DNA of 56,858 nt from a virus. Below the pieces are notes generated by a model. It was not told where the DNA came from and made no database searches. It saw only the letters and a list, made by a program, of their open reading frames with translations. This document shows, in pieces, positions 1,272 through 43,339 of this stretch. The position numbers and the translations under genes are program-made. Within the stretch, counting starts at the first letter, position 1. The number at the start of each line of letters is the position of its first letter. The DNA is taken from positions 1 through 56,858 of IMG/VR virus record IMGVR_UViG_3300049841_000045. The stretch is one strand, 5' to 3'.

Positions 1272-3386
1272 GTGGCAACTCGACAGAAGACTGTGCAGTT
1301 TGCGTTTCCCGCTAAAGCAACGCTGACGAATAACACGCTTGAAAATATGACTCAGATTACGGTGTATATACCGGAGTCTGGGGTTACTTTTAGGAGTGTA
1401 ACGGCGCGGGTTAGTTTTGACGATATAGTAACTGCTACCGGGGGCACGTTAACTACCAAGACGCTTGCTTTGCAACTTGGGGCTGCCGGGTATAGCACAG
1501 TAACGAATTCTAACTCACTAAACCATACGAGCACTAATCAAAGTTTTTATTTGGCCCAAGATTATACGGCATACTTTGTTTCGAATTGGTCTGGCACGTC
1601 CATGACCTGCGATTTTCAGTTACAGATTAATCAGTCGACGGGCACTACCCTTGGTATGGTCAATGTTTGTGTTGTCCTCGATGTCACGTATGATTATGCA
1701 GACACTAGCGCCACTCAAATTAAAACCGTAAGGATTCCGCTTAATGGGCCAACGGGAGCTTTGACTGTTAGCGATACGACATACGACACGATGCCCGCTC
1801 TGGATTATTATTTAGCAGAACCCAGTAAAACTTATAGAAGTATTTTCATAACCATGGAAGGTATGACCCATAATAATGGGTCAACGACAGACCACACTAT
1901 TACTTTTCATGCGGGTACTGCAACGGTAACTACAGGGAACTACGAGGCATCGCTCGTCGCGGATCGCCGGTATAGGTATGTATGGGATGTTACGAGTGCG
2001 TGGCCCAGTAAGACTGCAACGCAAGTGTTCCAGTTATCTGACACGGTCGGTAGGTGTAATCATCCGCAAGCTTGGCTGACTGTTACCTACGAGTTTAAGG
2101 CTGATGCGGCGACGACTACGTTATCCGCGGGGTTGCCCGATGGTTCCGGCACTACAGTGTCTGTAGTGTCGGCAGCCGCGTTGGGGACTGCCCCTTTCGT
2201 CATCAGCATAGATAACGAACAAATGCTTGTGACTAGTATTGCCTCTAATGATCTTACTGTAACCCGAGCCTATAACGGAACTACGGGGGTCTCGCATAGT
2301 AACGGAGCCACGGTGTCACCTTGCGCCACTAATTCGGTGGTCTTGTGCGGCTACGGGCTAGCCGGGATGAGTGGGGGCACTACAAGTTCTGATTACCAAA
2401 GATTCGCAAATAGTTTACGCATTGAAGAACCTGGTCCTATAACTGCAGCTAAAATAGCCTTTTTACTTGATTTTAATCTAACCGGCGTCGTCGCCGGGTT
2501 GAACGTACGGGTGGGTACTGGATCTTTTGTCGGGTACACTGTAAATTCGACATTGTATGCTGGTAGTTGCGGGCTAATGGTCCGTAATGATTCCGCGTTT
2601 ACCCTGGCCCGTGGCAATAACAATTTAACTTTTGACATCTATAGGACTGACACGACAGTTAATAATTTCATGTTTGGGCTTACTGGTCGTTGGATCGTAA
2701 ACTATGTCAGTGCTAAATCTGCTGCCGGGTATGGTGCGCATAATCATACTGTCGCATGGACTTTGGCGGTAAGTGGAACGGGGGCGGCGCCAAATACGCT
2801 CACGGTTGCGGCTACATCTCCGAATATTCCGGAAACGGATTATTTTCTATCAAATGTTGGAACTCATTACCGCAGTATGCCAAATTCGGGGGTTCTCCCC
2901 GGTCAGTTGTACGCTGCTGTGGAGCGATTAGCCGCCGAAGGCGGTGTCCGGTGGGACACTATAATGTCCGCGGCGCCCATATCTGACAGCAAAGTTGGGG
3001 ACTGGGTTTTTACGTCAGACGCGTCTAGATTTTTCAAGCGATGGCCAGCAGATACAGGGTACGAGCGGTTTGACTTGGAAACTTCTCGGCGGTGGCGGTT
3101 TGCGCATAGCGCTGGCATGTACCCGCTATTGCAACTCTGGTATACCTACCACACCTGCGGCCCCTTCGTCGTCTCTGATTCCGTCACAGGTAGCGATGGC
3201 GGCACAGTGACGATTGGTCTGTATCGCTCGAGCGATGGTGAGCTACTCAAGTCCACGACTCGAGCAGGTAATGGGGCTTATAGTTTCAATTGGTGGGACA
3301 ACACCGAGAACGTCTTCACGGCTTGCACCGATGCGACGGGGCATACCGCGCGCAGTAAGGATGGCGTCGCTACAGGAAGCCCGTAA
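1272..3386 (+). CDS. Putative large tail fibre / virion structural protein
   Basis: 704 residues, GTG start at 1272 chosen because an AGGAGA ribosome site lies just upstream. The protein is rich in Thr, Ser, Val and Asn with regular beta-strand spacing. A motif recurs inside it: 'LDYYLAEPSKTYRS' near residue 175 and 'TDYFLSNVGTHYRS' near residue 527, which suggests a duplicated beta domain. A Ser/Thr-rich linker near 280-345 resembles phage beta-sandwich decoration modules. The last 70 residues ('VSDSVTGSDGGTVTIGLYR') look like a carboxypeptidase-regulatory or Ig-like fold. No enzyme motif is visible. Its context between fibre genes argues for a virion surface protein. Specific function unknown. 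Confidence 0.5.
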   Translation: MATRQKTVQFAFPAKATLTNNTLENMTQITVYIPESGVTFRSVTARVSFDDIVTATGGTLTTKTLALQLGAAGYSTVTNSNSLNHTSTNQSFYLAQDYTAYFVSNWSGTSMTCDFQLQINQSTGTTLGMVNVCVVLDVTYDYADTSATQIKTVRIPLNGPTGALTVSDTTYDTMPALDYYLAEPSKTYRSIFITMEGMTHNNGSTTDHTITFHAGTATVTTGNYEASLVADRRYRYVWDVTSAWPSKTATQVFQLSDTVGRCNHPQAWLTVTYEFKADAATTTLSAGLPDGSGTTVSVVSAAALGTAPFVISIDNEQMLVTSIASNDLTVTRAYNGTTGVSHSNGATVSPCATNSVVLCGYGLAGMSGGTTSSDYQRFANSLRIEEPGPITAAKIAFLLDFNLTGVVAGLNVRVGTGSFVGYTVNSTLYAGSCGLMVRNDSAFTLARGNNNLTFDIYRTDTTVNNFMFGLTGRWIVNYVSAKSAAGYGAHNHTVAWTLAVSGTGAAPNTLTVAATSPNIPETDYFLSNVGTHYRSMPNSGVLPGQLYAAVERLAAEGGVRWDTIMSAAPISDSKVGDWVFTSDASRFFKRWPADTGYERFDLETSRRWRFAHSAGMYPLLQLWYTYHTCGPFVVSDSVTGSDGGTVTIGLYRSSDGELLKSTTRAGNGAYSFNWWDNTENVFTACTDATGHTARSKDGVATGSP

Positions 3387-3667
3387 TGGCTACGTTCTCG
3401 TTAGACATGCGGGCACCGCCCAGCACGTTTGCGCTGGTGATGTCTGCGTCTATCGCGGCTCCTGCCGTCGACTACATCGTGGACTGGGTGCCCATGTCGT
3501 TAGCGGCCCACTTCCACGAAGTTCGTATTCGGTGGACTGAAGCAGAGTTCAATGCCTTGGTGCTGGCCGAGGCGGCGGGTAGTGCGGTGTGGGCGAAGTA
3601 CCCGCCAGGTAAGGCGCTTCACAAGCCCGAAGTTTGGGTCTGGCTAATGCTCGAGGCGATAGGCTGA
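3386..3667 (+). CDS. Hypothetical protein, tail-fibre region
   Basis: 93 residues. The ATG overlaps the upstream stop (TAATG), so it is probably translated by coupling. Hydrophobic and Trp-rich ('DYIVDWVPMSLAAHFHEVRI', 'PEVWVWLMLEAIG') but without a clear membrane segment. I do not recognise a family. Position in the fibre operon suggests a small accessory of the virion surface such as an assembly factor or chaperone, which is inference only. Confidence 0.5.
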   Translation: MATFSLDMRAPPSTFALVMSASIAAPAVDYIVDWVPMSLAAHFHEVRIRWTEAEFNALVLAEAAGSAVWAKYPPGKALHKPEVWVWLMLEAIG

Positions 3668-3689
3668 ACTAAGGTTTTAAGGAGAATTA

Positions 3690-4289
3690 GTGGTAGCCTT
3701 GCTAGTAGTAGGTTCTGCGCCCTGTGCGCATGAAGACTACGTCAAAGCGAAGGCCCTGTATCCAGACTCGGAAACGATGCTGGTCAACGGGGCCTGCACG
3801 ATGATCGAGGATGCGGAGCACATGCTTTCCGGGCATACGGTGAAGGCGAATGACTTCTACCGCGCCCGGGCAGAAGTGTTTCCCCGTACGCCGATCCGGG
3901 TTCATGCGAACTCGCTCGGGAAGCACCTGCGGGTCTACCAGGCCGCGTTTCCGTGCGTCACGGATTGGTGGGGCCCGGAGATGAGTTCGGGGGCGACCAG
4001 TGCCGGCAAGGCCGCGCTGATCGGCCTGAAGATGGGGTTCGATCCGATCATCCTGTGCGGCTGCCCCATGGACGGGAGCGGGTACAGCATCGATGAGGCA
4101 ACGGTTCCGCAGGACAAGTCCTGCCAGCGCGTCGGCGATCCGAACGTGCAGAACCGGCGAACGATCATGGGGTACCGGGAAAAGTACGTGTCACTGGCGC
4201 GCACGGTATTCAAGGATAAGGTTTTCAGTATGAGCGGATTCACTCGTCTTCACAGCGGCGCGCCTCCCGGGTTTTCGGAAAAGGTTTAA
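3690..4289 (+). CDS. Rossmann-like protein, possibly MptE/DUF115-like sugar-associated
   Basis: 199 residues with GTG start at 3690 behind AAGGAGA. The N-terminus is a Rossmann-type strand ('VALLVVGSAPC'), followed by 'MLVNGACTMI' and a later 'ILCGCPMDGSGY' segment. That order of glycine-containing strand, NGA-like turn and late GC.MDG motif recalls the MptE/DUF115 family, which includes proteins working near sialyl- or flagellin-glycan transfer. The resemblance is by eye and the assignment is tentative. It sits 3 kb upstream of an FkbM-type methyltransferase and a DxD glycosyltransferase, so a shared role in modifying a virion glycan is possible. Alternative: unrelated nucleotide-binding protein. 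Confidence 0.4.
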   Translation: MVALLVVGSAPCAHEDYVKAKALYPDSETMLVNGACTMIEDAEHMLSGHTVKANDFYRARAEVFPRTPIRVHANSLGKHLRVYQAAFPCVTDWWGPEMSSGATSAGKAALIGLKMGFDPIILCGCPMDGSGYSIDEATVPQDKSCQRVGDPNVQNRRTIMGYREKYVSLARTVFKDKVFSMSGFTRLHSGAPPGFSEKV

Positions 4290-4300
4290 GAGGATCAAGC

Positions 4301-4747
4301 ATGGCGACTTTTCAAGTAACGGATGAATGGGCAAATTACCTCGCGACTTCGGGTGGCGCCGGCAGCCCCGACGTGGACGGCGACACTTATAAGGCGGTGC
4401 TGTCCAACGTTGCCCCGACCAAGGCTGGAACTCAGCTCATCGGGTCAATCACGCAGATTACCGGCGCGGGGGGCTATGCCCCGGTGACGTTGACAGGTAT
4501 TACGTGGGCTGAAACGGGCGCCGGTACGGGCATCTGGCAATTTAGTTCCGCGGCTTTTGCTTGGACGGCTTCCGGAGCGAATTTTGACACGGCTCGGTAC
4601 ATCGCGATTTACGACGATACGCCGACTGTACCTGCCGATCCTGTTGTGGGGTATCTCGATTATGGCACCACGTTTGTCGTAACGGACGGGTCCACATTCA
4701 CGGTAACGCCTGGGGCCAACGGGATCTATCGCATCACGGTGAGCTAA
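4301..4747 (+). CDS. Putative virion structural protein
   Basis: 148 residues starting at ATG 4301. It is made of short beta-like stretches rich in Thr, Ala and Gly ('YKAVLSNVAPTKAGTQ', 'YIAIYDDTPTVPADPVVGYL'). Small proteins of this make-up (a strand announcing time or space intervals, then 'YIAIYDD') recur next to fibre genes in many phages and are annotated as structural or hypothetical. No catalytic motif. The gene lies one base before the glycine-rich fibre gene, consistent with one transcript. Confidence 0.45.
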   Translation: MATFQVTDEWANYLATSGGAGSPDVDGDTYKAVLSNVAPTKAGTQLIGSITQITGAGGYAPVTLTGITWAETGAGTGIWQFSSAAFAWTASGANFDTARYIAIYDDTPTVPADPVVGYLDYGTTFVVTDGSTFTVTPGANGIYRITVS

Positions 4748-4748
4748 C

Positions 4749-6449
4749 GTGGCTGATACCAAGGTCAGTGCTTTAACGGCGGTTGCTACGCCCGCGAGTA
4801 CTGACGAGTTCCCGGTTAACCAGAGCAGCACATCTAAGAAGATGACGCTGGCTCAAATCAAGACGTTTGCGCATACTTTGACTGCGCCGACGGTAATTTC
4901 CGTGGGCGCGGAATTTACCAGCACCGGCGTGCCCACGGCCACGCTTCCCGGCACGCACACAACCAACGACATTCTAGTGCTGGTGCTCCAGTCCAGTAAC
5001 GAGATTATCACTGCCCCGTCAGGGTATACACAGCTCGGCCCTCAGAATGGCATCGGTACGGCGGTGGCCGCGGGCGCGAATCGGCTGGGCATTTTCTGGA
5101 AACGAGACGGCGGATCTGAATCCGCTCCGACGATCGCGGACTCGGGCGATCATACCTACGGAATGATGTTCGCTGTACGTGGTTGTCCGACGACGGGCGA
5201 TCCGTTCCATATTGGCGGCAATAACTGGAAGTTCGCGACTTCCACGACGGGCACCAGCCCGGTTTCGGCTACGGTTATCGACAACACCCTAGTGGTCGAC
5301 ATCTGGGCAGGCAGTGCCGATAACGCCGCCGCCGAGGGGTCCTCGCTCGCCAATACGGATCTATCCAGCGTCACCGAACAGTTTGACGATGGTACTACGG
5401 ACGGCACGGGCGGATTCATCTATGTTTCCTCCGGCCTAAAGGCTGTTGCGGGAACAGTTAAGGCCACTACCGTTACGTGGGCGAATACTTCTGTCGATCT
5501 GTGTACCCGCGTTCATTTCCTCCCGGCGGGCACTGTCGATCTGGCCTCCGCCGAGCGCCCGTGCGAGGTGCTTTTGTACTGCGGTTCTCCGCAGGATACG
5601 GATGACACTTGGGTCAAGCCCGCTGGCGCTAAGCGAGTGTTTGCGCAAGTTTGCGATGGCGGTGGGGGAGGGTCCAGCGGAAATACCACGACTACGGCTG
5701 CCGCGGGTGGTGGTGGCGGTGGTGGCGGATACGACGAAGCATGGTACCTGGCGGATGACTTGGGCGCTACGGTCACGGTACACGCGGGAAAAGGTGGTGC
5801 AGCGAACGCGGGGCTAAACCAAGCAGGCAATCCCGGCGTTTTATCTGAGTTTGATAAGGGAAGTCGTGGCCCGTTAACCTCTACTTCGCGTATTGCTGGC
5901 ACTGCTGCGACTGCGGCAGCTTCAGCGGACGGCGGTAATGGTGGTTGCGGATCGGGGCGCGGTAGAGCATCCCCCGCAGTTGCTACAACACGTATCGACT
6001 TAACTGCAGCCACGGCTGGATCTGGGCTAGGCGCGGTAGGAGGCCGCGGCGGTTCTGGTACAACGGCGCCTACCGGCGGGTCCCCCGCTGAGTGGGGCGG
6101 TGGTGGTGGCGAGTCTGGCGCCGATACAGATGCCGCGATTACCAGCGACAATAATGGTTGGTCTGTTCGTGGTGGCGGCGGCGGATCTGGCGGCCGTACG
6201 AACACTACCATTTCGCAGTCCGGCCACGGGGGCGGTGCTGCTGGCGTAAGCTCGGCGCAGGGGGCAACAGGCGCCACATCCACGAAGTTGCCATACGGTG
6301 GATCGGGCGGTGTGGGCGGCGGCTCGAGCGTCGTCACTGGCGGTACGGGCGGGTTCCCCGGCGGCGGGGGCGGCGGTGGAGCTGGCGCAGCGGGTGGGTT
6401 TGGTGGGGCTGGTGGACATGGGTGTGTCGTTGTAACGACATTCTTCTAG
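4749..6449 (+). CDS. Glycine-rich tail fibre protein
   Basis: 566 residues, GTG start at 4749. The first 40 residues ('KVSALTAVATPASTDEFPVN') match a short module common at the N-terminus of phage fibre proteins, thought to be an attachment segment. A central globular beta part at about 50-275 ('GHTTNDILVLVLQSS'-like region, 'GTVDLASAERP') is followed from about 280 to 566 by a long glycine-rich domain with GGGGGG, GGSGG and GGAGG runs. Such domains form the receptor-contacting tips of T-even-like adhesins (polyglycine sandwiches). Two other genes in this genome (55144 and the split gene at the contig ends) carry similar domains. Confidence 0.6.
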   Translation: MADTKVSALTAVATPASTDEFPVNQSSTSKKMTLAQIKTFAHTLTAPTVISVGAEFTSTGVPTATLPGTHTTNDILVLVLQSSNEIITAPSGYTQLGPQNGIGTAVAAGANRLGIFWKRDGGSESAPTIADSGDHTYGMMFAVRGCPTTGDPFHIGGNNWKFATSTTGTSPVSATVIDNTLVVDIWAGSADNAAAEGSSLANTDLSSVTEQFDDGTTDGTGGFIYVSSGLKAVAGTVKATTVTWANTSVDLCTRVHFLPAGTVDLASAERPCEVLLYCGSPQDTDDTWVKPAGAKRVFAQVCDGGGGGSSGNTTTTAAAGGGGGGGGYDEAWYLADDLGATVTVHAGKGGAANAGLNQAGNPGVLSEFDKGSRGPLTSTSRIAGTAATAAASADGGNGGCGSGRGRASPAVATTRIDLTAATAGSGLGAVGGRGGSGTTAPTGGSPAEWGGGGGESGADTDAAITSDNNGWSVRGGGGGSGGRTNTTISQSGHGGGAAGVSSAQGATGATSTKLPYGGSGGVGGGSSVVTGGTGGFPGGGGGGGAGAAGGFGGAGGHGCVVVTTFF

Positions 6450-6462
6450 GAGGGCGGCCGCT

Positions 6463-7104
6463 ATGGCGGATAGATACCTTCTAGAAAGTGGGGCACCGGA
6501 CGGGTATTTGCTGGAGGATGGAACTGGCGTCCTCCTGCTTGATGTTGTAACCAACCTCACTTTAGATATTGATACGCCGGGGGCGATAACGCTCGCCGGG
6601 CAGGCGATGACGGCAGCTTATGGACTGCCACTCACCAACGGCGCGATCACGATCGCTGGGCAGGCGATCACTTCGAAGATCAGCGCGGCGCTAAGCACTG
6701 CCGGCGCGATCACGATCGCCGGGCAGGCGATCACTTCGAAGATCGGCGCGGCTCTGAGCACTGCCGGTGCGATTACGATTGCCGGGCAGACGATGACGAT
6801 GGTGCTTGGCACGGAAGTGGTGATATCCACTCCGGGGTCAATCACCCTTGCCGGGCAAAGTGCTACGTCGAAGATCGGCGTGGCGATCAGCAGCCCCGGA
6901 GCGATTGTACTTGCCGGGCAGAGTGTTACACTTTCGCTTGCTTTCGAGATAACGATTCAGGCGGGGCAGGTTACGATCGCTGGGCAGTTTGTTGAGCCCT
7001 GGTTGGTAACGCCGCCTCCGCAATTAGTGCGGGCTATCGTTCCACGGTGCCGCCGGTTGAAGAAAGTGGCGAAGAAGCCAAGAGTCTATCGGTACGAGGC
7101 TTGA
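6463..7104 (+). CDS. Short tandem-repeat virion protein (AGQ repeats)
   Basis: 213 residues. The N-terminus has the 'YLLEDGTGVLLLD' module seen in phage tail-associated proteins. Residues about 38-185 are seven tandem repeats of 21-23 residues, each centred on 'G(A/S/Q)ITIAGQ' with strand-turn-strand pattern. Two successive units (near 6640-6770) are almost identical in DNA, a sign of recent duplication. The C-terminal 25 residues are strongly basic ('RRLKKVAKKPRVYR'). The repeats suggest a beta-solenoid or fibre shaft. The exact role is unknown. The preceding ribosome site is AGGAGGGC at 6448-6455. Confidence 0.55.
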   Translation: MADRYLLESGAPDGYLLEDGTGVLLLDVVTNLTLDIDTPGAITLAGQAMTAAYGLPLTNGAITIAGQAITSKISAALSTAGAITIAGQAITSKIGAALSTAGAITIAGQTMTMVLGTEVVISTPGSITLAGQSATSKIGVAISSPGAIVLAGQSVTLSLAFEITIQAGQVTIAGQFVEPWLVTPPPQLVRAIVPRCRRLKKVAKKPRVYRYEA

Positions 7105-23487: not shown

Positions 23488-23992
23488 CCCGCAGCGACAA
23501 CGCGTCTATCGCTGGGAAGAAGACCTGACAAACTGGGCGGGCGCTCGAGCCAGCCAGAAAGAACTACGCCAGGTCATTCGTCGCTGTTGCGCGACGTATC
23601 GAGTCCCAGTTCCCCGGATGTACTTCGTTACCAAGAACCGTCGTAACGGCAAGCGGTTTCACAGCGAATACAACCCCAATCTCCACACGATCACCTTGCG
23701 CCCGCGCCACATGGACATGGGCTCCGCGATCCACGAATCCGCGCACGCGATCACCGACTGGATACTGGGGTACTGGCTCCAGCCCCACGGGAAGGAATTC
23801 CTCGGGGTGTATATCTCGCTGCTGACGAAACTGAAGATGCTCCCCAAGTCAGCACTCACCGCGCACGCCAAGTCCATGCGCTTAAAGTTCTGCGCTCACG
23901 CCCTGATCGGGCCAAAGCACATTCGCAGGCGGTTCAAGACCCGGGTGCGCAACGCACACCGGGAACGAAGAATGCTCAGGCTGTGGACGTAA
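23459..23992 (+). CDS. SprT-like zinc metalloprotease-type protein
   Basis: 177 residues from the GTG at 23459, preferred because a GGAG lies seven bases upstream; in-frame ATGs at 23444 and 23393 would extend it backwards over DUF1353. The zinc motif is HESAH (residues 92-96), with a third ligand candidate at His110 in 'LQPHGKEFLGVY', the arrangement of SprT/WSS1-like minigluzincins. An N-terminal helical region and a basic tail ('KHIRRRFKTRVR') flank it. Such enzymes can cut DNA-bound proteins, and a virion or DNA-processing target is possible. The gene converges with the helicase gene and overlaps it by 17 bp. Confidence 0.6.
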   Translation: MPVSRSPKHDPQRQRVYRWEEDLTNWAGARASQKELRQVIRRCCATYRVPVPRMYFVTKNRRNGKRFHSEYNPNLHTITLRPRHMDMGSAIHESAHAITDWILGYWLQPHGKEFLGVYISLLTKLKMLPKSALTAHAKSMRLKFCAHALIGPKHIRRRFKTRVRNAHRERRMLRLWT

Positions 23993-25355
23993 GCCCCTGC
24001 TGCAACCCGTCCTGGGTCGCAGCCTTGCTCTGTAAGAGCCCCACGTAATGATCATCGCGCGTGCCATCCGCTACGATGTGGTGGATACGGATATTCTTGC
24101 CGGCCCGCCTATGCCCACCCGTGAGCCGGGCGTTCACTTGCTGGTAGAGTTCCAGCGAGGGGTTAAGCCCGAAGTGGATCACGTCTTCGGCCCCCGCCTT
24201 GTACACATCGTTGAGCCCATGCCCGGCCGACGCGGGGTGTAGCACGCCGATCTCATAGTTCCCCGACGCCCACTCCACGAAGGACTTGTCTGACCGCAAG
24301 ATAGACCAGGGTCGGACTCCCTTACGCAGCACGGTCTGGATACGCTCCAGATCGTGCCGGTAGTGATAGGCGACCAACATCTTCCCCGAGATCCCCTCGA
24401 TCAACTCCTCGAGGGCATCCAGCTTCTCGGTATGGAACTCCACCCACTCCTCGCCGTCGATGTACACCGCACCGTTGGCGAGCTGCAGGAGTTTACCGTC
24501 CAGCACCCCGGCGTTAACGGCAGTCAGCGGCGTGCCCGCGACTTCCGCGGTGTACTTCTTGGCCATCTCCCGGTACGTACGCATCGCGGACTCCGGGAGG
24601 GTGACGCGGACGAACGTCTCGATGACCTCGGGCAGATCCAGATAGTCCTCCTCCCGCAATGACAACACGATGTCCGCCACGGCCCGCTGAATCTCCGGCT
24701 CCGCTCCGCGCTTGAGCACGGGGGTCTTGAACTGCCCATATCCTTCCAGATCGAACCACCGCTCCGTGAACGCCTTCTCGGTGATCCCCAGCCGTTCGCC
24801 GCGGTCCAGGAGATAGAGTTGACTCCATAGATCGCCGTACCCGTTGGGGGAGGGCGTTCCGGTAAGCTGCACCATACGGGGGAATAGCCTGCGCAGTCGA
24901 CGCATGGACTTCCAGCGTTTGGAAGACTGCGACTTGAAGGATTGCGACTCGTCCAGAACAACCAGATCCCACGGCCAGCGCATGATCTGCTTGCCGTTCG
25001 TGAGGAACTGGGCCTCGAGCCATTGGGTGTTCTCGCGGTTGATCGTGTGGATGTCCGAGGGCGTACGCATTGCGGCTACGCGCTGCTTTTCCGTGCCTCC
25101 GATGACGGATAGTGAGAGATGTTTAAGGTGCGCCCAAGTGTGGATCTCATCCAGCCAGACTTTTCTCGCCACCCGAAGAGGGGCGATGACGAGCATCCGG
25201 CGAACATCGAAGGCGGCTAGAAGATCGGAGAACGCGGTTAGCGTGGTGACACTCTTGCCAAGCCCCATCCCCACCCAGAGCGCGCAGTTGTCATGCGACT
25301 TGATGAACTCGACAGCGCGATGCTGGTAATGGTGAAGATCATCACGGTCTAACAT
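23976..25355 (-). CDS. SNF2-type DEAD/DEAH helicase
   Basis: 459 residues. Helicase motif I is 'GMGLGKS' (residues 29-35), motif II 'VVLDESQSF', motif III 'VQLTGTPSPNG', and the second RecA lobe carries 'LHPASAGHGLND' and an arginine-rich motif VI ('QVNARLTGGHRRAG'). This is the compact phage form of SNF2 helicases usually found next to a VRR-NUC nuclease and polymerase. It likely remodels or unwinds DNA in replication or recombination. It starts 14 bp inside the VRR-NUC gene and ends against the converging late genes. Confidence 0.85.
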   Translation of the reverse strand: MLDRDDLHHYQHRAVEFIKSHDNCALWVGMGLGKSVTTLTAFSDLLAAFDVRRMLVIAPLRVARKVWLDEIHTWAHLKHLSLSVIGGTEKQRVAAMRTPSDIHTINRENTQWLEAQFLTNGKQIMRWPWDLVVLDESQSFKSQSSKRWKSMRRLRRLFPRMVQLTGTPSPNGYGDLWSQLYLLDRGERLGITEKAFTERWFDLEGYGQFKTPVLKRGAEPEIQRAVADIVLSLREEDYLDLPEVIETFVRVTLPESAMRTYREMAKKYTAEVAGTPLTAVNAGVLDGKLLQLANGAVYIDGEEWVEFHTEKLDALEELIEGISGKMLVAYHYRHDLERIQTVLRKGVRPWSILRSDKSFVEWASGNYEIGVLHPASAGHGLNDVYKAGAEDVIHFGLNPSLELYQQVNARLTGGHRRAGKNIRIHHIVADGTRDDHYVGLLQSKAATQDGLQQGLTSTA

Positions 25356-25698
25356 CGCGCTCCCGTTTCGCTACGAGTTCCTTGAACTTCTCAAACCCGT
25401 CGCACTCGTATACATCCCAGCCCGCTTCGCGCATCTTACGCTGTTCGTCTTTCTGCGCATCCGTCGAAGTCTTACCGGGGGCCTTGAACTCCACGGCGAA
25501 CTTGTCCCGGTACTCCTGGTGCGCGAATAGGTAATCGGGCACTGAGCGCTGGGCGGGGGACGAGAATTTCCGCGCCCAGTACCCCCGCAGCCGTGCCCAG
25601 TCCACGGACTTCTTCTGAACGTCCTTCTCGAGAATGTCTTTGTGAATGGATTGTGAATCGAAAGCGTCGATAGTGAATGGGTCCCTGAGGTCTTTCAT
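25342..25698 (-). CDS. VRR-NUC domain nuclease
   Basis: 118 residues. The stand-alone VRR-NUC fold is shown by 'RSVPDYLFAHQ' (catalytic Asp), 'KFAVEFKAPG' (E.K catalytic pair) and 'DAQKDEQRKMREAGW'. These enzymes cut branched or flapped DNA structures. The ATG overlaps the polymerase stop codon (ATGA), so it is translated with it. Polymerase, nuclease and helicase form a common phage replication module. Confidence 0.85.
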   Translation of the reverse strand: MKDLRDPFTIDAFDSQSIHKDILEKDVQKKSVDWARLRGYWARKFSSPAQRSVPDYLFAHQEYRDKFAVEFKAPGKTSTDAQKDEQRKMREAGWDVYECDGFEKFKELVAKRERDVRP

Positions 25699-28649
25699 TT
25701 CCGGTATCTCCTTCCCCTATGCCCGTCCACGGCCACCGGAAGCCCGGCAGCCCACCTCGGCAATTCACACATCAATCGCCCCGCTTCCTCGAAGGACCCG
25801 AAGTCTTGCGAGACTTCCGTTATGACTTCATCATGTACACTTCCGACCACCGAATACCCACGTTCTTCCAACCTGTACATGCCGTGTACAAGTAGGTCGC
25901 GGGCGGTTGCCTGAACAGCATTTTCGCAGTTATGGACTAAAAAAATTTCGCCGGTTTCCCCGCGCACGGTAAAACGTTTTAAAGGCCCTGCGTTAATCAA
26001 GTCGTAGGTTCGAGCAACCTTCCCTCTGGCCACCGTCGTCGGATGCGCTCGTACAGCGTAGTTTTTTTGATTCCGAAAGTTTCCGCCGCCTGACTCACAA
26101 CCATAACCCCCTTCGGCGTGCGTATTGCCACATTCATTCGGGTATTGCGGCCTTGTTCTTTCCGCGTCGCCCATCGGCAATTCTGTTTGGAATACCCTTT
26201 CTCGTTGTTTATGCGATCGAGAGTCAATCCTAACTGGTATTCGGCTAGCATATCCTCTACAAAATTCTCGAAACGTAGCCAGCGATTGCAAACCCGTATC
26301 CCACGCCCCCCGTAATTGCGCCATGCCTTGTGCGACGGAAGTGTACAGCGAGCACGCATACTTCGCCAAACGTGAAAGATAGGGTGCCGGGACATCCCGT
26401 GAGTTATTAATTTTTCGCCTATCAATTTGCCAGTTTTGCATCCACAGGATTTCGGACTTGGCCCTCGTGCTCGAGTTAACCCCGCTCCCCCCAAGGTAAC
26501 CGTTTTTCCACATTGGCACCGCGCCCGCCAGTAAGTCTTTCCCTTTGCGCTGTGCGAATACCCCAAGATTGTTAGGTAAACGAATTTGCGCCCGGTTAAG
26601 TCCTTCGCTCTGTGCCACAACGGCTTCTTTCCATCCCTCATCGGTTAGTACCTCGTGGTCCGGGGTCATAAAAACGCCCGCATAGGATATCACATCCCTG
26701 ACGCCTTGATCAACTAACCCACCGCTGTACACCCAAGATTCTCCATCCCATACCGCGTCTTGCGTTGTGCACAGCTCGATCGCGCGCCACCCCGATAAAG
26801 TAAGAACCTCGGTACCCTCCGCTAAACACAATTTTCCCCCGTAGGTCTCAAGCTCCATCCACTGCCGGGTATAGGTGTCAATGCCCGAGTAACGTAGCCC
26901 CGCGTCCATCTCGGTCTCGACCCACTTCGGGTCGAAGTAGGCAATCCGGCGTCCCGAAGGCAGACGCATGTACAGCCACTTATCCACGACCTTGAACATG
27001 ATCTTCTTGTTCGGGATCACGTAGGTCTTGCCGGAGTATTTCACCGCCAGATCCGCCGCCTCCTTCAGATCCTTCCAGCCTTGTACGATCTTGGGGTGGA
27101 TCGCACGCCACATCCGTTTGAGTGAGTCACAGGCGATGAACTGATCATGCGGCAACCCGGCGCGGTACTGGGGCAGCGTCTGCCACATCCATTCGGCGGA
27201 CTCACGGATCTCCTCATCGATGAATGGTAAAACCGCGTCGGCCATCTCGGCGAGATCCACGCCGTGGTTCGCCGCCATGGTAACGAATGCGGAGGCCCCG
27301 CCCTCATACCCCATAGCGAGTTCCAGGACTTTTCCCACCGCCCGATCCTTTTTATTAACTCTCGCCGGGTTAACGTGGAACGCTCGGGCATACGCTAGCT
27401 TGTACAGGTCCGGGCCTTTGCCCTCATCGAACAGCCGGAACGCCTCCAGCTTCCACTTCTCGCCGAACAGCCAGGCATTCACCCGAGCCTCGATCCCTGC
27501 GTAGTCCGGGAAGATAAAGTCCTTCCCCTTGCCGGAAACCAGCACGGAGCGTACGCACGAAGAGGCTACCTTCATCGGGTCGACACCCGGATACAGATCG
27601 CGTATCCAGCTCAACGATCGAGCGCGGAACGCCTCCATAGCGCTCTCCGGGTCTTCGATCACGGGCCGGAAGAGATTCTGGAGTTGGACGATCTGCGAAG
27701 ACCACCGGCCTGTGCCAGCTCCATGGTACAGGAACATGCCACGAAGGCGTTCATCCTTGCACATCGCGGCAAGGATCGCATCGTACTTCGTCACGGCTTT
27801 CATGTTGTACGTGCTGTAGATTTTCAAAGCACGTTCAACAGGCTCGGGGGCTTCGCCCGCCGAGACGATCTCCTTCACCGTCTCGGCCTGCATATCTGTC
27901 AGTTCCGCGTAACCGTTCGTCCGCACCCACTCCGCGATCTTCTCGCGCTGCGTCGGATTGGCGCCCGTCAACTTCACGCATTCTTCGGCGAGATAGGCCT
28001 TGTACTCATCCACCACCGCCAGGATATTCTCGATCGACTCCAAGTCAACCTTGATGCCCCGGTCGTTGATACGCTGGTCTAGCTCATAAACGAGCTGTTC
28101 GGCGGGGGAGAGATCAGGTACGAGCCGATCGATGCTACGTTCCGACTCCACATCCTGTTTGTTGTAGTCGTACAGGATCTTGAACTTCTCCGGGGAGTTG
28201 GCGGGCGTGTATCGCCCCTCGGGGTGTTTCTTCCGGGGCTTAGAGAGCTGCAACATCGTGATGCGGCCTTCCCCTGACTTCTCGACAGCCCCGAGTGCCT
28301 TCGCCGCCCCGGCCAGATCACGCGGCAGGCCATGCGCCGCCATCTTTGCCGCGGTGCAGACGCACTGTTCGATCTTGATCGGTGGGAATCCTAACTTCCT
28401 ACCGGCGACGCCGTTCAATACGACTCGCTCAAACTGCGCGCTGTGGGCCCGCAGTTCCTTGCCTGCTGCGATATGCGCGATCACCTCGGTGGGCAATTCC
28501 CGCCCCGGCGTCCATAGCTCCACCGGCCCGTCATCGAACGCATAGGCGAAGCACAACAGTTCCGTGGACTCGTGTTCGGCGTAGCGATAGACGCCTGCAG
28601 CCTTGAGGTCTACCTCACTGTAGGTCTCGATATCGAGGTGAAGTCTCAA
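25695..28649 (-). CDS. polA-like: DNA polymerase I (family A), intein-containing
   Basis: 984 residues, of which 300 are an intein (608-907), leaving a 684-residue extein. The start is TTG at 28649: the conserved exonuclease strand 'LHLDIETYS' begins at residue 3, and the codon overlaps the preceding TGA. Proofreading motifs are D6/E8, 'HSAQFERV' and 'YNKQDVE'. Polymerase motif A is 'DYAGIEARV' with Asp382, motif B 'RAVGKVLELAMGYEGG' (R436, K440), motif C 'VGSVHDEV' with Asp940. Catalytic and template contacts are intact, so an active replicase is expected once the intein is removed. The intein splits 'GGKL' from 'CENAVQATARD', the conserved stretch before motif C, so the unspliced protein should be inactive. 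Confidence 0.9.
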   Translation of the reverse strand: MRLHLDIETYSEVDLKAAGVYRYAEHESTELLCFAYAFDDGPVELWTPGRELPTEVIAHIAAGKELRAHSAQFERVVLNGVAGRKLGFPPIKIEQCVCTAAKMAAHGLPRDLAGAAKALGAVEKSGEGRITMLQLSKPRKKHPEGRYTPANSPEKFKILYDYNKQDVESERSIDRLVPDLSPAEQLVYELDQRINDRGIKVDLESIENILAVVDEYKAYLAEECVKLTGANPTQREKIAEWVRTNGYAELTDMQAETVKEIVSAGEAPEPVERALKIYSTYNMKAVTKYDAILAAMCKDERLRGMFLYHGAGTGRWSSQIVQLQNLFRPVIEDPESAMEAFRARSLSWIRDLYPGVDPMKVASSCVRSVLVSGKGKDFIFPDYAGIEARVNAWLFGEKWKLEAFRLFDEGKGPDLYKLAYARAFHVNPARVNKKDRAVGKVLELAMGYEGGASAFVTMAANHGVDLAEMADAVLPFIDEEIRESAEWMWQTLPQYRAGLPHDQFIACDSLKRMWRAIHPKIVQGWKDLKEAADLAVKYSGKTYVIPNKKIMFKVVDKWLYMRLPSGRRIAYFDPKWVETEMDAGLRYSGIDTYTRQWMELETYGGKLCLAEGTEVLTLSGWRAIELCTTQDAVWDGESWVYSGGLVDQGVRDVISYAGVFMTPDHEVLTDEGWKEAVVAQSEGLNRAQIRLPNNLGVFAQRKGKDLLAGAVPMWKNGYLGGSGVNSSTRAKSEILWMQNWQIDRRKINNSRDVPAPYLSRLAKYACSLYTSVAQGMAQLRGAWDTGLQSLATFREFCRGYASRIPVRIDSRSHKQRERVFQTELPMGDAERTRPQYPNECGNTHAEGGYGCESGGGNFRNQKNYAVRAHPTTVARGKVARTYDLINAGPLKRFTVRGETGEIFLVHNCENAVQATARDLLVHGMYRLEERGYSVVGSVHDEVITEVSQDFGSFEEAGRLMCELPRWAAGLPVAVDGHRGRRYRK
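25929..26828 (-). other. Intein in DNA polymerase (class 1, Cys1...His-Asn/Cys+1)
   Basis: Codons 608-907 of the polymerase frame, exactly 900 bp. Block A is 'CLAEGTEVLTLSGW' with the nucleophile Cys608. Block B is 'GVFMTPDHEVLT' with the TxxH residues Thr662 and His665. Block F is 'RTYDLINAGPLKRFTV' and block G 'GEIFLVHN' with penultimate His906 and terminal Asn907. The +1 residue is Cys908. All residues needed for splicing are present. Between blocks B and F the polymerase frame encodes about 210 residues with no recognisable LAGLIDADG or in-frame HNH domain. That stretch is the out-of-frame shadow of the nested endonuclease gene. Confidence 0.9.
25997..26641 (-). CDS. HNH homing endonuclease nested out of frame inside the intein
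   Basis: 214 residues in the +1 frame relative to the polymerase and entirely inside the intein DNA. The N-terminal part has 'DLTGRKFVYLTILG' and Cys pairs ('RCQCGK', 'SCGC') for zinc. The HNH core is 'YGGRGIRVCNRW', 'LTLDRINNEKGY' and 'NCRWATRKEQGRNT', a common phage HNH family. The C-terminal 'VSQAAETFGIKKTTLYERI' is a helix-turn-helix of the NUMOD/IENR type for site recognition. A GAGG nine bases before the ATG, formed by intein block B codons, could drive translation. It probably cuts intein-less polymerase alleles to mobilise the intein. Confidence 0.85.
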   Translation of the reverse strand: MRDGKKPLWHRAKDLTGRKFVYLTILGYSHSAKGKTYWRARCQCGKTVTLGGAGLTRARGPSPKSCGCKTGKLIGEKLITHGMSRHPIFHVWRSMRARCTLPSHKAWRNYGGRGIRVCNRWLRFENFVEDMLAEYQLGLTLDRINNEKGYSKQNCRWATRKEQGRNTRMNVAIRTPKGVMVVSQAAETFGIKKTTLYERIRRRWPEGRLLEPTT

Positions 28650-42691: not shown

Positions 42692-43339
42692 TTAATACTC
42701 CTCGGCTTCTTCACGCGTGATGAAAAAGTGAATGCCGTTGGAACACTCCACCCGCGGGTCGGGATCGTAAGAGTCCGGGCGGATAAGCCTGCCAAGCACG
42801 TACGGGGTGCCGTCATACTGCGCTTTCCCTTCACCGGCGATCACATACGCAAACTCGGCCCGGCATTTGCGCGAGCTGTACGCGTTAACGCGTTTGGCGT
42901 CAGCGGGAATACGCAATGTGGCGATTACTCCACCCTGCAATTTCTTGTACCCAACGATGTCCCCCGCCGGGAGGATGCAAAAGGCATGCAAGCCTTTCGC
43001 GCCCGCCAGATCGGCGCTGCACAGATTGGCGCAGAACAGATTGGCGCAGAACAGATTGGCGCAGAACAGATTGGCACCGGACAGATCGGCGCTGCGCAGA
43101 TAGGCGCCGGACAGATTGGCGCTGCGCAGATCGGCGCTGCGCAGATTGGCGCAGAACAGATTGGCGCTGCGCAGATCGGCGCCGGACAGATTGGCGCTGC
43201 GCAGATCGGCGCCGGACAGATTGGCGTTGCGCAGATCGGCGTTGCGCAGATCGGCGCCGCGCAGATTGGCGCTGCGCAGATCGGCGCCGAGCTCTAACGC
43301 CACCTCGCGCACCGAGCCGTCGAGAAATGAGACTTTCAT
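42692..43339 (-). CDS. Pentapeptide-repeat protein with C-terminal DUF5758-like domain
   Basis: 215 residues. Residues about 18-115 are about 19 tandem A(D/N)LXX pentapeptides ('[15 protein letters not shown]'), which fold as a right-handed quadrilateral beta-helix. DNA repeats of 15 bp track them over about 43000-43290. The C-terminal 100 residues ('[18 protein letters not shown]', '[16 protein letters not shown]') are a separate domain common at the end of phage pentapeptide proteins. Some pentapeptide proteins mimic DNA and block gyrase, so a host-topoisomerase or nuclease role is possible but not shown. ATG 43339 follows GGTGAGAT. Confidence 0.8.

Follow-up and report, generated by a model that had tools for sequence, protein, structure and literature searches.

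An HNH endonuclease gene nested out of frame in the intein of a phage DNA polymerase, and its recurrence in other phages and host genes

Can one stretch of phage DNA encode the intein of a DNA polymerase and, in a second reading frame, the endonuclease by which that intein would move? The question is raised by IMG/VR virus record IMGVR_UViG_3300049841_000045, which was analysed over its whole length of 56,858 nucleotides (the window), and in which a polymerase gene is interrupted by an intein that also holds an HNH endonuclease gene. We are confident in reading this locus as a mobile phage intein with an independently translated homing endonuclease gene overprinted on its linker in the +1 frame.

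The host gene is an open reading frame (ORF) on the minus strand (25695..28649) for the 984 aa precursor of a PolA-like (family A) phage DNA polymerase, which matches PF00476 (4e-12), phrog_17 DNA polymerase (1.4e-90) and, in its C-terminal part, phrog_10285 (6e-46). Judged by sequence, codons 608-907 of this ORF are an intein of 300 residues (25929..26828, minus strand), inserted in YGGKL|CENAVQ. The initial annotation had placed a splicing domain on these codons, and every residue that it named is found as described: Cys1 (Cys608), T55-x-x-H58 in block B (codons 662/665; 26655..26666), and H299-N300 (His906-Asn907) followed by Cys+1 (Cys908) at the splice junction (25926..25934), which together correspond to the Cys1/Asn class 1 type. 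Across 28 family members C1, T55, H58, D276, G281, F286, H299 and N300 are invariant, although the family was collected by a junction pattern that requires an intact HN|C, so that conservation of HN|C is no independent evidence. The AlphaFold2 model of the intein has a predicted local distance difference test score (pLDDT) of about 95 for most of residues 1-91 (N-terminal part of the splicing, or Hint, domain; 26556..26828) and above 90 for residues 267-300 (C-terminal part; 25929..26030), with values below 50 for residues 92-266, and the top Foldseek matches of the splicing-domain model are the RecA, DnaX, DnaE and DnaB inteins. Among PDB profiles the window intein matched PI-MtuI (E 9e-7). 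PHROGs and PDB profiles gave matches for the window proteins, while no usable Hint or HNH match was found among the Pfam and NCBIfam models. The insertion is precise, as the intein-free polymerase of contig L002 (55% identical to the window polymerase over the best segment) has GGKL|DENAVQ against GGKL|C...HN|CENAVQ in the window, the insert being exactly 300 codons; a second homologue, L003, is also intein-free at this site. Directly upstream of its intein-free polymerase, L002 carries a free-standing NUMOD4-HNH-like gene (3327-3998).

On the same strand as the polymerase, in the +1 frame relative to it and within the intein, the ORF listing contains an uninterrupted HNH endonuclease gene of 214 aa (25997..26641, minus strand), just as first described. 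Its ATG (26639..26641) lies at intein residue 63, with a TTG further down as second candidate, and a Shine-Dalgarno (SD)-like GAGGT (26650..26654), with an anti-SD pairing of -7.2 kcal/mol, is found 8 nt upstream, in the block B codons for His-Glu-Val. The ATG is 4-5 codons past the block B His, still inside the conserved tail of block B (VLTDEGW), and the TGA (25997..25999) is formed from the Asp-Leu-Ile codons (YDLINAG, residue 277) of block F (YDLINAGPLKRFTV; 25965..26006), so the gene touches both splicing blocks. The nested gene thus occupies the place of an endonuclease domain, as had been proposed, but its limits are not strictly between the blocks, since it slightly overlaps both B and F. 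The protein is homologous to phrog_374 HNH endonuclease (3.2e-60) and phrog_3377 (1.7e-49), its predicted features are zinc Cys pairs, an HNH core and a C-terminal helix-turn-helix, the Cys and core residues are invariant in the family alignment, and its AlphaFold2 model has a mean pLDDT of 85.8.

This layout is not restricted to the window. In a tblastn search of phage records with the window HNH protein, the best 17 matches were all inside annotated DNA polymerases, namely those of APSE phages, Caulobacter phages GB2A, RW, RLK and KcrB, and Shewanella phage SFCi1, and each of the representatives examined (APSE-1, APSE-2, SFCi1 and RLK) has the intein with a +1 HNH. The polymerase site was then covered by 49 IMG/VR contigs matching the junction pattern VHN|CENxxQA, nearly all of which hold an intact +1 HNH; the exceptions are short inteins, cut contigs, degenerate copies and L072, the sole case among them with the HNH in +2. 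A second pattern retrieved 37 contigs with inteins in SNF2-like helicases, and 34 of these gave a +1 HNH match, nearly all without internal stops. The same arrangement occurs in +1 in a terminase (L016) and in the polymerases of Streptococcus phage Javan255 and Gardnerella phage AB1, and in +2, as an HNH ORF of about 250 codons, in the polymerases of Jerseyviruses and Sodalis phage SO-1 (L080 2590-3336, L081 2575-3336, L203-L209) and of Salmonella phage Ent2 (248 codons); additional polymerase and helicase insertion sites show it as well. A junction scan of genome contigs returned a single copy, a degenerate one from an Arsenophonus endosymbiont (L079, NZ_OUND01000001.1). The double-coded intein/HNH layout is therefore widespread: it occurs in dozens of phages, and its host genes are of three kinds.

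Several single contigs deserve separate mention. The window has its own SNF2-like helicase (23976-25355, minus strand), which is intein-free at HPA|SAGHGLN, the exact site of the nested-HNH intein in L018 and many other contigs. The terminase large subunit of L016 (2112-5663) has two inteins in one ORF, with the +1 HNH in the first. The polymerase host ORF of L042 (3017-6850, in the reoriented or given strand) seemingly has two out-of-frame HNHs, one in +2 (4612-5109) and one in +1 (5898-6542), the latter with one stop codon. In L065 and the Arsenophonus contig L079, an APSE-like polymerase fragment is degenerate, the HNH being broken and the host ORF cut short, and seems to represent a decaying prophage. 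At sites where other contigs have overprinted inteins, L048, L056, L085, L099 and L105 carry a shortened intein (or a short host ORF) and lack the HNH, apparently by deletion.

How would the nested gene be read? In nearly all members the HNH N-terminus has an ATG or GTG with an SD-like run upstream, and the mean SD pairing is -7.5 kcal/mol vs -3.0 in control windows, values of -5 or lower being found in 95% of members and 21% of controls. The HNH stop codon lies inside block F in 24 of the 34 members having the motif and upstream of block F in none. By sequence, block B carries the HNH start signal and block F usually the stop, and ribosomes may use both; the start codon with its SD also favours the earlier suggestion that HNH enzyme and intein are made separately. 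One alternative to internal initiation is that ribosomes leave the intein frame by programmed frameshifting, which would yield a fusion of polymerase, N-terminal intein part and HNH. As the HNH begins just past block B on the same strand, such a truncated fusion could hold the enzyme, but an ATG or GTG with upstream SD at the HNH N-terminus in nearly every member argues for internal initiation, and frameshifting seems to us improbable.

Selection acts differently on the two frames. Between related members omega is 0.09-0.23 for the HNH, mostly 0.03-0.27 for the Hint parts and 1.0-2.3 for the shadow host frame, whose identity is near a synonymous-shuffle null from HNH conservation alone, close pairs excepted because their codons are shared by descent. 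Purifying selection acts on the HNH frame, and the stretch of host frame that separates the splicing blocks is a shadow without conservation, kept merely stop-free and flanked by a confident splicing fold. The initial annotation had suspected that the linker residues are a shadow of the HNH, and omega of at least 1, identity mostly near the shuffle null and pLDDT below 50 agree with this.

These values also bear on a further alternative, a parasite resembling the ShiLan domain, in which the intein around the HNH has lost its ability to splice and the insert is tolerated as a polymerase loop. The ShiLan domain, published in 2025, places an HNH out of frame in a phage methylase and has no splicing domain (PMC11855218), so HNH insertions can persist without one, and another out-of-frame HNH insertion has been described in phage Applejack (PMC12613952). 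However, the splicing residues here are invariant in the 28 members, the Hint parts have the low omega given above, the insertion is within a conserved polymerase motif, and L048, L056 and L085 lost the HNH yet kept a short intein with splicing motifs. We regard such a non-splicing insert as very unlikely. ShiLan is still the closest published precedent, without an intein: in both systems a stop-free in-frame insertion hides an intact HNH in another frame and homing is proposed. The difference is that ShiLan has no detectable splicing domain and its insert remains in the host protein, whereas the window HNH is flanked by a conserved intein, and in nests of the window type the start and usually the stop signals are inside blocks B and F.

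Bifunctional in-frame inteins are similar in that their endonuclease lies between blocks B and F, at a conserved site of a replication gene for which intein-free alleles exist, and that homing is presumed. There the endonuclease is in frame; the window HNH is in +1 and would be a separate protein, and the host-frame linker is a non-conserved shadow without conserved fold. Dassa et al. 2009, a study cited in PMC3229294, reportedly described "fractured genes", in which split inteins have a free-standing endonuclease gene between their halves. The endonuclease is there likewise a separate gene at the position of the intein linker, with host gene and intein broken into two ORFs, unlike the overlapping genes in one ORF seen here. 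A split intein with an intervening endonuclease gene was ruled out for the window, as the host ORF is one continuous 984 aa.

HNH ORFs lying out of frame are a typical feature of group I introns in phages, and the annotators of Sodalis phage SO-1 did label the complete nested HNH (gp39, in +2) of its polymerase (gp38) a type I intron. For the window, an intron carrying the HNH ORF is highly improbable, given that no Rfam match was found anywhere in it, that the host frame is open throughout, and that splicing residues are conserved and the Hint fold is confident. I-HmuI and the phrog_374 phage HNH homing endonucleases share with the window HNH the HNH core, the helix-turn-helix and family homology; I-HmuI differs in being encoded in a group I intron, and its sequence similarity is weak. 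In GenBank, gp38/gp39 of SO-1 and P45/P46 of APSE-1 both represent a polymerase with intein and a nested HNH ORF, P46 being a 423-nt piece of the HNH ORF deposited without comment, and their meaning as nested ORFs apparently went unrecognised. The annotation of the Ent2 polymerase intein reads "encoding splicing domains" and names no endonuclease. We found no paper describing an out-of-frame endonuclease inside an intein in the open-access literature, closed journals and preprints being outside this search, and the overprinted form is apparently previously undescribed. The first impression that no standard family has this layout calls for a qualification: ShiLan has been published, and P46 and gp39 were already annotated.

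That one frame is only spuriously open in GC-rich DNA has some initial appeal, since GC-rich third positions open alternative frames more often, and in a few members the probability of zero host-frame stops (P0), obtained by permuting synonymous codons of the HNH, is by itself 0.01-0.1. For the window HNH the permutation expects about 7 host-frame stops, 0 are observed (P0 < 0.001), and the third frame has 14. Host-frame stops across the HNH are absent in 36 of 36 non-redundant members, where shuffles average about 2-12 and the remaining frame has 3-23 (product P ~1e-94), and in 19 of 20 helicase members (product P ~1e-59), the one stop being in L115, a contig that looks frameshifted. The AT-richer APSE and other members with low GC at third positions are just as open, and family homology is strong for both proteins, so that chance can practically be set aside.

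The openness can be traced to codon choice. In the +1 relation a host-frame stop can form only if AA, AG or GA comes directly after an NNT codon, and in this context the nested genes used NNT 0 times in 657, against 38% elsewhere and 53% in free-standing HNH relatives; this zero follows from the open host frame, of which it is the mechanism, and is no extra test. Since every NNT has an NNC synonym, a +1 nest stays open without any amino-acid change in the HNH. In the +2 relation a stop is unavoidable where Met precedes T, I, K, N or M, and such pairs are absent from the three +2 HNH proteins checked, with an average of 1.55 in the +1 ones. That both frames must stay open, as originally suggested, is borne out by the shuffle statistics and by the homologues, in which neither the HNH nor the intein frame is broken. 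A sequencing or assembly frameshift masking an ordinary in-frame HNH intein, conceivable for a metagenome-derived contig, would require two compensating indels in each of dozens of independent contigs and in Caulobacter RLK, Salmonella Ent2 and APSE-1, no in-frame HNH version was seen at the PolA site, and it is excluded because the layout recurs in many genomes that were sequenced independently, among them APSE-1 and phages of Caulobacter, Shewanella and Salmonella grown in culture. The intein/HNH overlap is neither chance nor sequencing error.

In the mechanism that we propose for the overprinted mobile intein, the polymerase frame would yield a precursor whose two Hint halves fold, cut out the intein and restore the polymerase, and roughly 175 linker residues would be a passively coded loop with the sole requirement of no stop. 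Ribosomes would start anew within block B, where an ATG or GTG follows an SD supplied by conserved codons of that block, translate the HNH gene, and terminate in or just past block F. The HNH protein would cut intein-free alleles, repair would copy in intein and HNH together, and protein splicing would shield the host gene.

Mobility is indicated indirectly, by a sporadic distribution and by degrees of similarity. Median identity is 0.31 for the extein, 0.50 for Hint and 0.50 for the HNH, so inteins and HNHs appear more alike than their host polymerases, as expected of a mobile element, although this may partly reflect different constraint and not transfer. The shortened inteins (L048, L056, L085) and the degenerate copies (L042, L065, L079) fit the life cycle of a homing element. 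The HNH tree unites the PolA-site HNHs in a single clade (97/94); SFCi1, with an intein inserted three codons beyond the PolA-site inteins, also belongs to it, and the helicase, terminase and Jersey/Streptococcus nested HNHs fall outside. The data did not, however, reject one common origin for the nested HNHs of polymerases and helicases (p-AU 0.26).

Besides the limits already attached to HN|C conservation, NNT use and median identities, other points weigh against the proposed reading. The window HNH protein had no match to any Pfam HNH model, Foldseek of its model vs PDB returned nothing at E <= 0.001, and the only solved relative by sequence is I-HmuI (1U3E), at a weak E of 0.0099; a catalytic role is suggested by PHROG homology and conservation. 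By themselves, the conserved codons of block B give a mean null pairing of -5.9 kcal/mol vs the observed -7.5 (Fisher p 0.011), so that independent selection on the SD beyond host coding appears marginal. The computations establish the anatomy, how both frames are conserved and selected, the precision of the insertion and the recurrence; splicing, internal initiation, cleavage and homing we infer from these.

Elsewhere in the window, an ORF of ADLRxAN repeats (42692-43339, minus strand) resembles a pentapeptide-repeat protein.

Taken together, overprinted inteins are likely to be a distinct and widespread form of mobile intein with gene boundaries in blocks B and F, which HNHs probably entered on more than one occasion and in either alternative frame, at several sites in polymerase A, several in SNF2-like helicases and in the terminase, so that inteins annotated as endonuclease-less, such as those of Jerseyvirus polymerases, would be equipped for homing. 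Intein mobility would then need no fused endonuclease, and the same DNA could serve as host gene, splicing domain and second selfish gene for little beyond third-position choices. This offers a concrete route for inteins to gain endonucleases from free-standing HNH genes, and suggests that inteins annotated as endonuclease-less or with unexplained linkers be rescanned in all frames. The family also provides a large natural collection of gene overlaps that are conserved and show a clear reading-frame asymmetry and, as a splicing-competent counterpart to ShiLan, it makes the translation of hidden HNHs directly testable.

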